NCBI GenBank assembly: GCA_903837555.1
Contig: CAILUV010000084.1
Location: 1 to 58,234, forward strand
DNA length: 58,234 bases
Reading direction: 5' to 3'
From: an uncultured Alphaproteobacteria bacterium
GTDB lineage: Bacteria > Pseudomonadota > Alphaproteobacteria > Micropepsales > Micropepsaceae
The notes beneath the pieces were generated by a model. It made no database searches and had not been told where the DNA came from. It was given only the letters and a program-made list of their open reading frames with translations. Shown here piece after piece: positions 8,893 to 13,912 of this stretch (its first letter is position 1; each line of letters starts with the position of its first letter). The position numbers and the translations under genes are program-made.

Positions 8893-10665
8893 ATGAGCCT
8901 GACGACCGCGATAAAGCGCGAATACACCTACGTCACCACGATCGTGCGCACCCTGTGGCTTTTGCGGCTGGTCAAGCCCAATGCCACCCGCAGCATCGTG
9001 GATATCGTCGAAGGCCAGGCCGCAAAGCGGCCCGACAATGCCGCGCTGCTCTATCTCGACCAGGTGATGACCTATGGCCAGATGAACGCCCGCGCCAACC
9101 GCTATGCCCATTGGGCGCTGTCGGCGGGGATCGGTCGCGGCGATTGCGTCGCGCTGCTGATGGAAAACCGGCCCGATTACATCTGCGCCTGGCTGGGCCT
9201 GTTCAAGGTCGGGGCGCAGGTGGCGCTGATCAACACCAACCTGATGGGCGCGGCCTTGTCGCACTCCATCGGCATCTCCGGCGCAAAGCACGCCATTGTG
9301 GGCGCGGAGCTGGCTTCGCAATTTCGGGATGCGCCGTTCGAGCAAATGCCGACGGAATGGATAGAAGGTGAGGGCGGCAACCTCAGCGCCCAGCTCGCCA
9401 ACATGCCGGAAGGGCATCCCGGCAAGGAACATCGCGCCGGCGTCACACTGAAAGACCGCGCTTTCTATATCTATACGTCGGGCACCACCGGCATGCCCAA
9501 GGCCGCCAATTTCAGCCATCTGCGCATGATGTTCATGATGAGCGGCTTTGTCGGGGCGCTGCGTCCGCGCGAGACCGACCGGCTCTATGACACGCTGCCG
9601 CTCTATCATTCCACCGGCGGCGTCTGCGCCGTGGGAATCGCCTTCTTCTCCGGCGCAGGCCTGATCCTGAAGCGCAAATTTTCGGCGCATGAATTCTGGC
9701 CCGACATCCACAAATACGGCGCCACCATGTTTGAGTATATCGGCGAGCTGGCGCGCTATCTTTTGAACGCCCCGCCATCGCCGCTGGATCGCGGTCACAA
9801 GATTCGCGCCATCACCGGCAACGGCTTGCGCCCGGAGATCTGGAAGCAGTTTCAGGACCGCTTCGCCATTCCGCGCATCGTGGAGTTTTACGGCTCCACC
9901 GAAGGCAATGTCTCCATGCTGAACTATGACGGCACGGTCGGCGCGGTGGGGCGGGTGCCGGACTATCTGGAATGGATGCTGCCCAGCCGGGTGATCCGCT
10001 TCGACGTCGAAAGCGAGATGCCGGTGCGCGGCCCCGATGGGCTTTGCATCGAATGCGCGCCCGATGAAATCGGTGAAACCGTGGGCGGCATTTCCAGCCG
10101 GCCGGGGCGGGGCTTTGAGGGCTACAACAACAAGGCCGACAGCGAAAAGAAAATCCTGCGCGACGTGTTCAAAAAGGGCGATGCCTGGTTTCGCACCGGC
10201 GACCTGATGCGGCACGACGCCCATGGCTATTTCTATTTCGTCGACAGGGTCGGCGACACCTTCCGCTGGAAGGGCGAGAATGTCTCCACCGGCGAAGTCG
10301 GCGCCGCCCTGTCGGCGGTGCCGGGCATCCTGGAATCCAACGTCTATGGCGTCGCCGTGCCGGGCATGGATGGACGCGCCGGCATGGCCGCGCTGGTGGT
10401 GAATGGCGATTTCAACCTGGACGACCTGCCGCCGCGGATGAAAGCGCGGCTTGCGCATTACGCGCGGCCCATCTTCCTGCGCCTTTCACCGCGTCTCGAC
10501 GTCACCGGCACTTTCAAGCAGCGCAAGGTCGATCTGGTGCGCGAGGGTTTCAATCCGCTCACGATTGCCGACCCCCTCTATTTCCTGGAGCCGGAGGGCG
10601 GCAAGTATGAGCGCCTGACGGCGGATCGTCATGCCGACATCGTTGAAGGCCGCATCAAGTTCTAG
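8893..10665 (+). CDS. Long-chain/very-long-chain acyl-CoA synthetase (FATP/FadD6-like)
   Basis: This 590-residue ANL-superfamily enzyme activates fatty acids to acyl-CoA through an acyl-AMP. The AMP-binding motif YIYTSGTTGMPKAA lies near residues 191-204, followed by FYGSTEGN and the C-terminal YFVDRVGDTFRWKGENVSTGEV, which is typical of the FATP/very-long-chain branch. The ATG at 8893 is chosen because AGGAGAG precedes it; a GTG eight codons earlier is less likely. Its stop overlaps the end of the convergent DUF3501 gene by four bases. The fab genes 3 kb away serve the opposite pathway. Confidence 0.9.
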   Translation: MSLTTAIKREYTYVTTIVRTLWLLRLVKPNATRSIVDIVEGQAAKRPDNAALLYLDQVMTYGQMNARANRYAHWALSAGIGRGDCVALLMENRPDYICAWLGLFKVGAQVALINTNLMGAALSHSIGISGAKHAIVGAELASQFRDAPFEQMPTEWIEGEGGNLSAQLANMPEGHPGKEHRAGVTLKDRAFYIYTSGTTGMPKAANFSHLRMMFMMSGFVGALRPRETDRLYDTLPLYHSTGGVCAVGIAFFSGAGLILKRKFSAHEFWPDIHKYGATMFEYIGELARYLLNAPPSPLDRGHKIRAITGNGLRPEIWKQFQDRFAIPRIVEFYGSTEGNVSMLNYDGTVGAVGRVPDYLEWMLPSRVIRFDVESEMPVRGPDGLCIECAPDEIGETVGGISSRPGRGFEGYNNKADSEKKILRDVFKKGDAWFRTGDLMRHDAHGYFYFVDRVGDTFRWKGENVSTGEVGAALSAVPGILESNVYGVAVPGMDGRAGMAALVVNGDFNLDDLPPRMKARLAHYARPIFLRLSPRLDVTGTFKQRKVDLVREGFNPLTIADPLYFLEPEGGKYERLTADRHADIVEGRIKF

Positions 10666-11255
10666 GCAAAATCCTTCGCCAGCGCCGCGCGCGTCTCCGC
10701 GCCGAGCACGGCCATATGACCGTAATTCCTGTGGCTCAGGCCCAGCACCAACCGTTCACTGCCGCTTTTGAATCGTGCGATCTGATCCGCATTCAGCTTG
10801 AAGCGCAGCCAGTGCACCGATGAAGTCTTGCCGTCGGGCGTGGTGCGGTCGTCATATTCGGTGGGCGTTGCCTTGATGGTGTCGGCGCCGATTTCCAGGA
10901 AGACGCTTTCCTCGATCCCGCCCAGGGTGAGCAGCGTGGCGCTGCGGCGCTTTTCATCCTCGATCTCCAGCATCAGGGTGGCGATCAGTTCGTCGCCCTG
11001 CGGGATCAGTGGATTATAAGCCGCAAGCTCCCCTGGAATCTGTTCGGCGCCGCCCTTTTCAATGCGCAGCATTTCCTGCACCTGCAGCCACATGGTGGCG
11101 TAATTCTCGAAATAGAAGGTGGCGAAGGGGCCGACCTCGATCCGCCGCAGCTTCTTCATCGGAATCAGGTTGGCCTTCAGCGCCTTGCGCTGCTGGTCAT
11201 ACTCGGTCGGCGAAAGAATGTCGGCGGGCGTGATCTGGCGTTGGCTTTCGGGCAT
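10662..11255 (-). CDS. DUF3501 family protein
   Basis: This 197-residue cytosolic protein has no membrane segment and no cysteine cluster. The opening ITPADILSPTEYDQQRKALKANLIPMKKLRRIEVGP-type region and the FENYATMWLQVQEMLRIE block mark the DUF3501 family, whose biochemical role is unknown. It starts four bases after the stop of the CCG-domain Fe-S gene, so the pair is one transcription unit. DUF3501 genes are commonly found beside such Fe-S proteins and rubrerythrin, which hints at iron or peroxide metabolism. Confidence 0.85.
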   Translation of the reverse strand: MPESQRQITPADILSPTEYDQQRKALKANLIPMKKLRRIEVGPFATFYFENYATMWLQVQEMLRIEKGGAEQIPGELAAYNPLIPQGDELIATLMLEIEDEKRRSATLLTLGGIEESVFLEIGADTIKATPTEYDDRTTPDGKTSSVHWLRFKLNADQIARFKSGSERLVLGLSHRNYGHMAVLGAETRAALAKDFA

Positions 11256-11259
11256 GTCG

Positions 11260-12594
11260 CTATTCTTTTTTCAGGCCGTAGGCACGGGCCATGATCTGGA
11301 TGGGATGTTCGGATTCGCGCGCCGGCGTCTCGGTGTGCGCCACGATGTGCTGCGCTGCCAGCGGGCAGTCCGACACGATATGGCCGCGCGCCTGGCTGTT
11401 GGCGGCGCGGAACACCGGGCGGCCCACCTTGACGCCGACATCATGGGTCGGCTTGACCACGCCGAAGGTGCCGCCATGGCCAGAGCAGCGCTCGATCACG
11501 TCCACGGGCGTTTCGGGGATCATCTTCAGCATCTCTGCCGCCTTGGGACCCATATTCTGGGCGCGGGCGTGACAGGCCAGGTGCACGGTGACGCCTTCAG
11601 GCAGCGGCGTCATGCCGCCCGGCAGGCCGTCCTTCTTGGCGACATCCACCACATACTCGTCGATGTCGTAGGTGTGCTCGGCGACCTTTTTTACATTCTC
11701 GTCGCCCGGCACGATCAGCGCCCATTCAAACTTCAGCATCAGGCCGCAGGATGCCGTCAGTGCGACGATGTCGTAGCCGTCATCGATCAGCTTGACCAAT
11801 TCCTTTGAAACCTTGGCGGCGTTGGACGCGACCCGCGCCAGCTCGGCCTGTTCCAGGAACGGCATGCCGCAGCAGCCGGGATAGGCGACCTTGGTTTCCA
11901 CGCCGATATGGTTCAGCACGGCGCGCGCATCCATGCCGGTCTCGGGCTTGTTGTAATTGACGAAACAGGTGGCATAGAGCGCGGCCTTGCGTTTGCCGAA
12001 GGCGGGCGCGGCGCTGTTGACTGTACCCGCATCATGCTTGTCGGCAGATACGAAAGTGCGGCTGTGAAATTTGGGCAGCGGGGCTTTTGCGTCGATGCCG
12101 GTGACTTTTTCCATCACCGGGCGCGTCAGCTTGTTCTCGACGTTGCTGGCCCAGTTGATCAGCGGTGCCAGGGGCCGCGCCATCGCGCCGTTGCGGTCCA
12201 TTTCGGCCAATTGCTTCTGGATGAACTCGCCCTTGTTCTTGCCGGCATTGGCAAAGCGGTGGCGCAGCATCAGGTGCGGGAAATCCAGCATGAAGGGATG
12301 CGGCGGCACATAGGGGCACTTGGTCATGAAGCACATGTCGCAAAGCGTGCAGGCTTCGACGATGGGATTGAAATCTTCCGATTTCAGGCTTTCGACATCT
12401 TCGGCGGGGCTGTTGTCGATCAGGTCGAACAGGCGCGGAAAGGAATCGCACAGATTGAAGCAGCGGCGGCAGCCATGACAGATGTCGAAGACGCGGCGCA
12501 TCTCCTCGTCCAGCTTCACCGGATCGGTGAAGTCGGGGTCTTGCCACTTGATGATTTCGCGGGTGGGGGCCTGGAGACTGCCTTCGCCGGTCAT
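11260..12594 (-). CDS. GlpC/HdrD-like Fe-S protein with two CCG domains
   Basis: The 444-residue protein has an N-terminal ferredoxin-like part with C39-C42-C45-C49 (CX2CX2CX3C) and C82-C85-C88-C93, whose last spacing is four instead of three. Two cysteine-rich CCG domains follow: C209 with the intact pair C240-C241-G, and C340 with C369-S370-G, where the second cysteine is Ser. Such proteins pass electrons between flavoenzymes, quinones or thiols. There is no FAD domain and no membrane helix, so a partner is expected. It is co-transcribed with DUF3501 and follows rubrerythrin after a terminator. Confidence 0.85.
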   Translation of the reverse strand: MTGEGSLQAPTREIIKWQDPDFTDPVKLDEEMRRVFDICHGCRRCFNLCDSFPRLFDLIDNSPAEDVESLKSEDFNPIVEACTLCDMCFMTKCPYVPPHPFMLDFPHLMLRHRFANAGKNKGEFIQKQLAEMDRNGAMARPLAPLINWASNVENKLTRPVMEKVTGIDAKAPLPKFHSRTFVSADKHDAGTVNSAAPAFGKRKAALYATCFVNYNKPETGMDARAVLNHIGVETKVAYPGCCGMPFLEQAELARVASNAAKVSKELVKLIDDGYDIVALTASCGLMLKFEWALIVPGDENVKKVAEHTYDIDEYVVDVAKKDGLPGGMTPLPEGVTVHLACHARAQNMGPKAAEMLKMIPETPVDVIERCSGHGGTFGVVKPTHDVGVKVGRPVFRAANSQARGHIVSDCPLAAQHIVAHTETPARESEHPIQIMARAYGLKKE

Positions 12595-12627
12595 GACGCT
12601 ATCCGCTGCTGAAGAATGCGCTGAAAG

Positions 12628-12664
12628 AAAAACAGCCGCGCGAAGCTTTCGGTTCGCGCGGCTG
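12628..12664 (-). terminator. Strong rho-independent terminator after rubrerythrin
   Basis: On the minus strand, twelve-base arms CAGCCGCGCGAA and TTCGCGCGGCTG (12653-12664 and 12633-12644) close an eight-base loop, followed by TTTTTCTTT. It lies 20 bases past the rubrerythrin stop and 33 bases before the Fe-S gene start. Confidence 0.9.
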
Positions 12665-12684
12665 GGATCGTTTTAACCCGTCAA

Positions 12685-13107
12685 TTACTTGCCGAGCGTG
12701 TCGAGGGCCTTCTGGAAGCGGCCGGCATGGCTCTTCTCGGCTTTCGCCAGGGTTTCGAACCAGTCGGCGATTTCGTCGAAGCCTTCGCTGCGCGCCGTCT
12801 TGGCCATGCCCGGATACATGTCGGTATATTCGTGGGTCTCGCCCGCGATCGACGCCTTCAGGTTGGCGTCGGTGGCGCCGATCGGCTCGCCGGTCGCCGG
12901 ATCGCCGACTTCTTCCAGATATTCCAGATGGCCGTGGGCGTGACCGGTTTCGCCTTCGGCGGTGGAGCGGAACACGGCGGCGACATCGTTATGGCCTTCA
13001 ACGTCGGCCTTCTGCGCGAAATAAAGATAGCGGCGGTTCGCCTGGCTTTCGCCCGCGAAGGCCTCTTTGAGATTTTCCCAGGTCTTGGTGTCTTTGAGTG
13101 CGGGCAT
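12685..13107 (-). CDS. Rubrerythrin (diiron domain only)
   Basis: This 140-residue four-helix-bundle diiron protein reduces hydrogen peroxide. The ligand pattern is clear: [46 protein letters not shown] and [11 protein letters not shown]. The usual C-terminal rubredoxin domain is absent, so electrons must come from another protein. The start at 13107 is preceded by GGAGAGG; two ATGs farther out lack a site. Upstream are a TTGACA promoter element and two Irr-box-like palindromes. A strong terminator follows, so it is transcribed mainly alone. Confidence 0.93.
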
Positions 13108-13134
13108 GTGCCTCTCCATGAAACTGCGGCGCAA

Positions 13135-13163
13135 ACACTGTCCCTCGCCCGCGAGCTTGTCAA
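13135..13163 (-). promoter_or_regulatory. Probable sigma-70 promoter of the rubrerythrin gene
   Basis: On the minus strand TTGACA (13163-13158) and CAGTGT (13140-13135) are 17 bases apart. The -35 box is perfect and the -10 box weak. The inner Irr-box palindrome ends five bases upstream of the -35 box. Confidence 0.5.
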
Positions 13164-13168
13164 CGGGA

Positions 13169-13183
13169 TTAGAACTATTCTAA
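13169..13183. promoter_or_regulatory. Irr box (iron control element), rubrerythrin-proximal
   Basis: TTAGAA and TTCTAA arms flank CTA. This is the TTAGAA-N3-TTCTAA form of the Irr operator described for Rhizobiales and relatives. The irr gene itself lies just upstream. Position next to the -35 box suggests direct control of rubrerythrin by iron status. Confidence 0.75.
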
Positions 13184-13187
13184 ACTG

Positions 13188-13202
13188 TGAGAATAATTCT
13201 CA
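13188..13202. promoter_or_regulatory. Second Irr-box-like palindrome, rubrerythrin-distal
   Basis: TGAGAA and TTCTCA arms flank TAA, the same 6-3-6 layout as the neighbouring box, centred 19 bases farther upstream. It also fits TGA-N9-TCA, the pattern of RirA iron-responsive operators, so the binding protein is uncertain. Confidence 0.55.
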
Positions 13203-13207
13203 TCTAG

Positions 13208-13298
13208 CCCCCTCCGGTTTCAGCTTTGCGCGAAGCTTCGCTTCGCACGCTGAAACCACCTCCCCACCTGCGTGCTGCGCACGCGCGGGGGAGGCGGG
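13208..13298. repeat. Palindromic intergenic repeat, copy B (double hairpin)
   Basis: Two hairpins stand in tandem. GGTTTCAGC/GCTGAAACC (13216-13224 and 13249-13257) encloses a GCGAAGCTTCGC palindrome. CCTCCCC/GGGGAGG (13259-13265 and 13288-13294) encloses GCGTGC-TGC-GCACGC. The right part matches copy A at 139-185. It ends just before the irr stop codon, so it may also act as the 3' structure of irr mRNA. Confidence 0.7.
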
Positions 13299-13299
13299 T

Positions 13300-13734
13300 C
13301 TATGCCCGCTTTACGCGGATGACCACATCGACGCGATCCACCGAAAGTCCCGGCGGCGGCGCGGGAACACCGGCCACGGCGATGCTTTCGCCCGGAATGT
13401 CGATCAGCATGCCTTCGCTTTCCAGGAAGAAGTGCTGATGGTCGCCCGTATTGGTGTCGAAATAGCTGCGCGCCGAATCCACGATCACCTGGCGCAACAG
13501 GCCCGCTTCGGTGAACTGGTGCAGCGTGTTGTAGACGGTGGCGAGCGAAACCTTCAGGCCCGCATCAGTCACTTCGTCGTGCAGGCTTTCCGCCGTCACA
13601 TGCCGGTCGCAGTTTTTGAACAACAGGCTGGCCAGCTCGACCCGCTGGCGGGTGGGACGCAGGCCGGCATGGCGCAGCCGCAGCGTGGCGGCGGCCGCCG
13701 CATCCTTGCTGGAATCACGCAAAGTCTTGCCCAT
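13300..13734 (-). CDS. irr: Irr-type Fur-family iron response regulator
   Basis: This 144-residue winged-helix repressor has GLRPTRQRVELASLLF, VSLATVYNTLHQFTEAGLLRQV and YFDTNTGDHQHFF, which together identify the Irr branch of the Fur family. The His99-x-His101 metal/heme-binding region is present. The N-terminal Cys-Pro heme motif of the Bradyrhizobium protein is absent, as in Rhizobium Irr. Irr acts when heme and iron are scarce and binds ICE motifs; three such palindromes lie close by. The start at 13734 follows AGAGGA. A TTG nine codons upstream is possible. The neighbours fabA-fabB-fabI are its usual company. Confidence 0.92.
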   Translation of the reverse strand: MGKTLRDSSKDAAAAATLRLRHAGLRPTRQRVELASLLFKNCDRHVTAESLHDEVTDAGLKVSLATVYNTLHQFTEAGLLRQVIVDSARSYFDTNTGDHQHFFLESEGMLIDIPGESIAVAGVPAPPPGLSVDRVDVVIRVKRA

Positions 13735-13807
13735 CGGGCCGGTTCCTCTTGGGTGGCGCAACCTGTGCGGTGGCCGCCAACCCTGCTAAACTGAGACGAG
13801 AATATAT

Positions 13808-13824
13808 CTTAGAACGCTTCTAAG
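13808..13824. promoter_or_regulatory. Irr box between irr and fabA
   Basis: CTTAGAA and TTCTAAG are perfect seven-base arms around CGC, the canonical Irr operator. It lies 74 bases from the irr start and 89 bases from the fabA start, in the divergent promoter region. It most simply means autoregulation of irr; control of fabA is also possible. Confidence 0.78.
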
Positions 13825-13912
13825 CAGCAAGGGGCGTTTGGCGGTAGCCCGGCCCGGCCTTTTGGGGTAGGGAACCGATCGGGAAACCCCAGAGTTTTCA
13901 AGGGACAGGAAA

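Follow-up and report, generated by a model that had tools for sequence, protein, structure and literature searches.

The 58,234-nucleotide window analysed here, a contig (CAILUV010000084.1) of an uncultured alphaproteobacterium of the family Micropepsaceae, carries on its minus strand four adjoining genes, all with open frames, that encode a DUF3501 protein, a CCG-type iron-sulfur (Fe-S) protein called RFO, a rubrerythrin (Rbr, gene rbr) and the iron response regulator Irr. The cluster is conserved and coherent, and its kind is already known: it is the aerobic-type rubrerythrin module RBR-RFO-DUF3501, beside its own Irr regulator. We favour, at a probability of roughly 55%, a reading in which Rbr reduces peroxide, RFO feeds it electrons and DUF3501 is a non-redox partner, the whole set being under Irr. 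The original prediction, made from the sequence alone, had described the adjacency of the four genes and Irr-type operators before rbr and irr, and the frames, family scans and exact palindromes confirm both. It had also put the trio forward as an undescribed system, which we reject: in 2016 Cardenas, Quatrini and Holmes described the trio and its co-occurrence, proposed the same electron donor and named the module (PMC5114695), and PMC7050145 and PMC7852563 took this up. The regulatory wiring by Irr is the main addition made here, and we do not claim that it is previously unpublished; no report of a link between Irr and the trio was among the matches listed in our literature search, and Rodionov et al. 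(2006) may list an Irr site before rbr.

The rbr gene (12685-13107, minus strand) encodes a protein of 140 residues in which PF02915 (102 bits) spans residues 11-134. Since this ferritin-like domain is the only one matched and the protein contains no cysteine, Rbr lacks a rubredoxin domain, as had been predicted. (The starts of rbr and irr were set at ATG, longer TTG frames being passed over.) The ferritin-like Glu and His positions, which we take to be the iron ligands, are invariant in 24 of 24 alignment rows. The closest relatives in the PDB, aligned over nearly the whole length, are 9onm/4di0 (238 bits) and sulerythrin (1j30, 178 bits), and the classical rubrerythrin 1b71 scores 95 bits, below both 4di0 and 1j30. 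Rbr is thus single-domain and closer to sulerythrin/4di0, the solved members of group 4 (the aerobic type) in PMC5114695, than to classical rubrerythrin, and on both counts it fits that group. A search of 61 genomes gave no match to the rubredoxin family PF00301 in 33 of the 40 that bear DUF3501, among them the draft genome that carries this locus (2.46 Mb in 101 contigs).

RFO (11260-12594, minus strand; 444 residues) matches the CCG family PF02754 (41.7 bits, 1.3e-10) and carries two ferredoxin-type four-cysteine motifs (C39/42/45/49 and C82/85/88/93) and two CCG-type regions (C210/C241/C242/C283 and C341/C370/S371/C410). All of these cluster cysteines are invariant in 43 of 43 rows of an alignment from 43 loci, from which L148, L150 and L167 had been dropped for a stop close to the 3' end of their coordinates and L141 for having several; S371 is serine in at least 90%. 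The identity of RFO as GlpC, subunit C of anaerobic glycerol-3-phosphate dehydrogenase, is ruled out by the equivalog cut-offs, since it scores 193.6 against a cut-off of 278 bits (NF008369) and 133.8 against 279.9 (TIGR03379), and RFO is therefore related to GlpC without being GlpC. Its predicted model (pLDDT 88.1) aligns to LutA (Z 23.4, 226 residues, the LutA entry being itself an integrative model), to EtfD (Z 21.6, 361 residues, root-mean-square deviation (rmsd) 4.1, in the second of two looks only) and to HdrB (Z about 19), so that RFO would have the CCG-domain fold in common with these three. The likeness has its limits: the second CCG of RFO reads CSG, the EtfD chain has 742 residues as against the 444 of RFO, and partners of the LutB or HdrA type are absent from the RFO cluster.

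The last gene of the set (10662-11255, minus strand) encodes a cysteine-free protein of 197 residues that matches PF12007 over positions 1-187 of 187 (197 bits, 3.3e-58). Its AlphaFold2 model (pLDDT 91.5, from a 65-row alignment) matches the solved structure 3fjv over the whole chain (Z 25.0, rmsd 1.4, 187 residues, 37% identity), which was also retrieved by a sequence search (2.6e-46); 3fjv is without an assigned function, so it gives the fold of DUF3501 only. Membership in another named fold family was considered and rejected, as all listed matches beyond 3fjv have Z of at most 7.1; these include CrdA, an adaptin ear, Kir channels and neelaredoxin (4.3), and possibly reflect a common arrangement only. 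From the strands of the model and these weak matches, we read DUF3501 as a helix-plus-beta-sandwich protein. No cysteine is conserved in the family: 37 of 65 sequences are entirely cysteine-free, and the commonest cysteine columns are column 45 (17 of 65), column 173 (13) and column 51 (10). DUF3501 is therefore not a conserved cysteine-ligated electron carrier, which rules it out as a second Fe-S carrier and makes unlikely the suggestion of the original prediction that it might supply electrons through a cluster. The companion statement that its role is undescribed agrees with those papers naming the family that we consulted, which give no function. On plasmids the family gave 4 matches in 72,556 records, all of them on Burkholderia replicons of 2.4-3.5 Mb.

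The co-occurrence of the three families is borne out across genomes. In 249 genomes sampled from the whole phylum, DUF3501, RFO and aerobic-type RBR are each found in 13, and these are the same 13, our own included; in none of them are the three genes more than about 0.6 kb apart, and five of the 13 genomes belong to other classes of the phylum. The cut-offs were E of at most 1e-3 for DUF3501, E of at most 1e-60 for RFO and at least 263.9 bits for RBR, the line for RBR (between 177.5 and 263.9 bits) having been drawn after the gap was seen, and at most 6 RFO and 16 RBR candidates were scored per genome, so a miss is possible where candidates were more numerous. Another 33 genomes gave weaker rubrerythrin matches, of at most 177.5 bits, without DUF3501 or RFO. 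In the locus itself DUF3501 is co-localised with a CCG-domain Fe-S oxidoreductase of the COG0247 type, PF12007 and PF02754 both scoring over their cut-offs. The regulator is a less constant neighbour, irr being next to rbr in 4 of the 12 trio genomes besides our own, all of them of our own class.

Gene order was compared in 119 loci. Of these, 39 come from relatives and the other 80 from named genomes, kept as the best 80 of at least 581 candidates and thus nearest relatives; the closest named ones are alphaproteobacterial MAGs. The 119 reduce to 109 with a unique DUF3501 (39 and 70, respectively), and loci without upstream room were left out of each count. Of the 106 loci that leave at least 600 bp upstream, 104 have RFO directly before DUF3501; RBR is upstream in 86 of 86, and irr adjoins in 60 of 81. 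The two exceptions to RFO adjacency are L141, in which RFO is frameshifted, and L132, a 6.3 kb contig with katG in the place of RFO, about 80 nucleotides before DUF3501, and with neither rbr nor RFO on it. At L075 the end of KatG is followed by what, by eye, is a broken rbr/DUF3501 piece. We considered whether DUF3501 and katG form a separate context and rejected this; because L151 has the order irr-katG-rbr-RFO-DUF3501, L132 and L075 look like the products of deletion or assembly damage. One locus outside the class has, downstream of DUF3501 and beyond a gene on the opposite strand, subunits of a 2-oxoacid:ferredoxin oxidoreductase (L191:4164-5991), a possible electron source in that single case.

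The regulator gene irrA (13300-13734, minus strand) encodes a Fur-family protein of 144 residues that scores 207.1 bits against NF045678 (cut-off 150). An ICE-type palindrome, TTAGAAnnnTTCTAA, which we call the Irr box, occurs without mismatch both before rbr (13169-13183; minus-strand reading TTAGAATAGTTCTAA), where it is conserved in relatives, and before irr (13809-13823), where it is flanked by a weak -35-like hexamer (13825-13830) and TATATT (13801-13806). With up to two mismatches the window holds three such sites, compared with 0.15 expected from shuffling. The whole draft genome holds four boxes with at most one mismatch, all of them exact and two of them at this locus (a backwards control pattern gave 2), and 14 sites with at most two mismatches as against 36 for the control. 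There being no excess at two mismatches, only near-perfect boxes are meaningful, and a wider regulon of degenerate boxes was tried and rejected. The third exact box is about 40 nucleotides before ahpC (contig C87, L036:1937-1951); a CMD-family (AhpD-like) gene comes next after ahpC, and Pfam confirms both. The fourth (contig C11, L035:1220-1234) lies next to a putative H+-pyrophosphatase gene and before a gene whose product resembles secreted proteins of the NHL type. In the relative G036 the box adjoining the same pyrophosphatase precedes katG; since no KatG match was found in our own draft genome, the C11 box may be a leftover (fossil) katG operator.

We extended the box search to 15 good, module-bearing assemblies picked from 36 relatives of the same genus, in which ahpC was named from its translation and KatG coordinates came from a separate KatG search. 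These contain 35 exact Irr boxes, of which 29 are at irr/rbr, three at ahpC (G006, G015, G028) and three at katG (G016, G021, G036), and the backwards control gave one site, in 1 of the 15. With our own genome added, 38 of 39 exact boxes are at irr, rbr, ahpC or katG, which supports a peroxide-defence regulon marked by the Irr box. Over the wider set of loci, a box (at most one mismatch, at most 260 bp upstream of rbr) accompanies 57 of 66 loci with an adjacent irr and 4 of 23 without, and was found in 0 of 1780 shuffled upstream regions and 0 of 106 RFO-internal stretches; the shuffles used for box and -35 counts keep single-base content only. The four boxed loci without an adjacent irr are L151, in which katG stands between irr and rbr, and three from Methylocystis. 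Irr would bind at the boxes, and repression is the favoured sign.

Where the His cluster would stand, Irr itself reads HQHF, and among 67 loci with an Irr match (some of them partial) 33 have HQHF, 29 HHHF, one HYHF and four none. No Cys-Pro haem motif was seen in the translation of our Irr. In Bradyrhizobium the His-cluster haem site of Irr is H117-119, and Irr is degraded on haem binding through an oxidation that involves H2O2 (PMC4700492). Given HQHF and the lack of a Cys-Pro motif, the trigger of Irr may therefore differ here from that in Bradyrhizobium.

Several further palindromes and repeats were observed, here and at other loci. A second palindrome, TGAGAATTATTCTCA, stands at 13188-13202, just upstream of the rbr box, to which it has two mismatches. 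Of 89 regions upstream of rbr at other loci, 9 contain a palindrome like it (at most one mismatch), and it is a possible site for a second Fur-family protein. Box-like palindromes precede rbr without an irr neighbour at L188:5087-5101, L193:5072-5086 and L189:9524-9538 (1, 1 and 0 mismatches, respectively; L188 is outside the class). At L127:5085-5845 there are two tandem irr matches upstream of rbr, and L052 appears to be the same contig. An inverted-repeat stretch, GGTTTCAGC...GCTGAAACC, was spotted by eye between irr and rbr (window 13201-13299); a pattern search gave no copy in the window at up to three mismatches, and the pattern used missed even the source stretch, so that this negative says little.

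The putative rbr promoter consists of TTGACA as -35 (13158-13163, minus strand), 5 nucleotides beyond the Irr box, and a weak -10, CAGTGT (13135-13140, minus strand). Among 62 boxed rbr promoters, our own included, 58 have a hexamer that matches TTGACA at five or more of its six positions and starts 3-7 nucleotides beyond the box, as against 54 of 3100 shuffled flanks; if only the best-scoring hexamer is counted, the number is 54 of the 62. A generic promoter scan returned two promoter-like sites; both lie on the plus strand, and the rbr promoter is not among them. At ahpC the hexamer lies 10-11 nucleotides before the start of the box in three of four promoters, so that the box is downstream of the -35, and at katG the arrangement of box and hexamer is different in each of three. 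Between rbr and RFO there is a terminator-like hairpin of 12 pairs, 9 of them G-C, that is followed by TTTTTCTTT (12633-12664, minus strand); the folding energy of the gap is -28.3 kcal/mol, with z -3.4, and 0 of 200 shuffles folded as well. Neither this hairpin nor the second palindrome near the rbr box figured in the original prediction. By a stricter rule a hairpin is present in 21 of 93 rbr-RFO gaps compared with 3 of 309 coding controls, and in 1 of 105 RFO-DUF3501 gaps, whose median length is 15 nucleotides and most of which are too short for one. Since this terminator-like hairpin lies between rbr and RFO, it probably holds the levels of RFO and DUF3501 below that of Rbr.

The locus shares with the published module its families, their adjacency, a one-domain RBR, a GlpC-like RFO and the electron role proposed for RFO (PMC5114695). 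That paper found all three families in 185 genomes of 4461, described fusions of DUF3501 with RFO in Nitrosomonas and suggested that RFO compensates for the loss of rubredoxin; in its accessible text the word Irr has 0 occurrences, and neither Irr boxes nor a hairpin between rbr and RFO is among the features described. The association was repeated in PMC7852563, with oxyR beside the trio in Sideroxydans, and the same trio has been reported in Andalucia and other eukaryotes, its proteins being predicted to go to mitochondria and RFO and DUF3501 being said to be of alphaproteobacterial origin (PMC7050145). The Andalucia genes are unlinked, whereas ours are adjacent. Like our Rbr, ferriperoxin of Hydrogenobacter thermophilus and sulerythrin are one-domain and without rubredoxin. 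Ferriperoxin is a tested peroxidase, assayed with NADPH and ferredoxin-NADP reductase (FNR), and its disruptant shows no aerobic growth; RFO and DUF3501 are not named in the available portion of that report (PMC3317640). As for the regulator, Irr targets elsewhere include bfr and, in Rhodobacter sphaeroides, mbfA (rubrerythrin-like) and the peroxidase gene ccpA (PMC3413700), so that an ICE/Irr box stands at rubrerythrin-like and peroxidase genes there as it does here, although MbfA is a membrane-bound ferritin, unlike the trio. Transcription of ccpA starts about 40 nucleotides downstream of its box, which resembles the geometry implied for our rbr, and is 1.8-fold higher in an irr mutant under iron limitation (PMC3413700). 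By analogy, ccpA would be a precedent for mild repression with rbr-like geometry, and the same box position would also allow activation.

These findings are consistent with the following scheme. The di-iron centre of Rbr would reduce hydrogen peroxide, and perhaps organic peroxides too, if it acts as its tested homologue does. Electrons would reach it from RFO, a soluble protein with ferredoxin and CCG regions akin to LutA, EtfD and HdrB, by way of two presumed [4Fe-4S] clusters and a CCG-bound cluster; we propose RFO as the donor because Rbr lacks a rubredoxin domain and no PF00301 match was found in the draft genome. DUF3501 would be a docking or assembly factor made together with RFO, and Rbr would be in excess of both as a result of the hairpin. 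Irr would bind the boxes before irr, rbr, ahpC and, in relatives, katG, and the set would belong to an iron/haem-linked peroxide-defence regulon. The original prediction of a unit for peroxide/iron defence, with the Fe-S protein in the place of rubredoxin, thus survives in good part, with the same 13 of 249 genomes, the exact boxes shared with ahpC and katG and the absence of PF00301 from 33 of 40 genomes in its favour; its claim of novelty and its DUF3501 as Fe-S donor do not.

A number of observations weigh against this scheme. PF00301 rubredoxin is present in 7 of the 40 DUF3501-bearing genomes. Neither DUF3501 nor RFO accompanies the RBR match of 177.5 bits in genome G305, which might, from its sequence, hold an aerobic-type RBR on its own. 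Many of the box loci come from one genus, and the box and locus counts are therefore not independent. At rbr the Irr box is upstream of the -35, a site equally fit for activation or repression, and rbr of Pelagibacter is up 1.57-fold under iron limitation (PMC2864753), which would speak against simple Irr repression if the gene is of the same type. As for the hairpin, 21 of 93 gaps is a low proportion, and the number of terminator-like sites in the region (3, against 4.4 in shuffles) is not above chance. Finally, ferriperoxin is reduced in vitro by NADPH and FNR without RFO (PMC3317640), and Thermoproteales have RBR and DUF3501 without RFO (PMC5114695), so RFO is not always needed. These last two points, together with the lack of a conserved cysteine in DUF3501, lend weight to a different arrangement, in which the Rbr peroxidase is fed by NADPH through FNR or ferredoxin, and RFO and DUF3501 build, metallate or repair the di-iron site or protect it under oxygen. 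We regard this as somewhat unlikely, since RFO has the layout of an electron relay, with cysteines invariant in every row and a fold like that of the electron carriers LutA, EtfD and HdrB, and a role in assembly would not require two ferredoxin-type motifs.

The neighbouring regulator is Irr, its targets elsewhere include mbfA and bfr, and the Pelagibacter rbr has been called a putative ferroxidase (PMC2864753). It could thus be argued that the locus handles iron and not peroxide, Rbr serving as a ferroxidase or iron buffer under Irr in the manner of bfr and mbfA, and RFO and DUF3501 helping to release or oxidise the iron. The other exact boxes in the 15 relatives are at ahpC and katG, which are peroxide genes (iron-storage genes were not searched for), and a one-domain homologue is a tested peroxidase (PMC3317640); we accordingly think iron handling quite improbable. 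RFO, with or without DUF3501, might instead sense cluster or redox state and tune Rbr or Irr accordingly, as the original prediction also suggested. This idea would draw on the adjacency of irr and on the cluster-binding motifs only. It seems to us very improbable indeed, as the family scans matched no DNA-binding or signalling family in RFO or DUF3501, and in 21 of 81 loci with room irr is not adjacent and the trio is still together. Electron supply to a peroxide-reducing Rbr by RFO, under Irr, remains the reading that we prefer.

Irr in this genus could have become a narrow, PerR-like regulator of peroxide defence, its main direct targets being irr, rbr-RFO-DUF3501, ahpC and katG, an idea that we think unlikely. 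Because the box is upstream of the -35 at rbr, downstream of it in three of four ahpC promoters and variable at katG, Irr could act in both directions, holding back some peroxidases and favouring the non-haem rubrerythrin when haem or iron is short.

The 2016 paper (PMC5114695) left two questions, the source of electrons for rubredoxin-less rubrerythrins in aerobes, and also in some mitochondria (PMC7050145), and the job of DUF3501. The locus described here narrows both: RFO and DUF3501 form a close pair downstream of a terminator-like hairpin, DUF3501 is not a conserved cysteine-ligated carrier, and RFO resembles LutA, EtfD and HdrB. The Irr box that the trio has in common with ahpC and katG ties it to peroxide defence.

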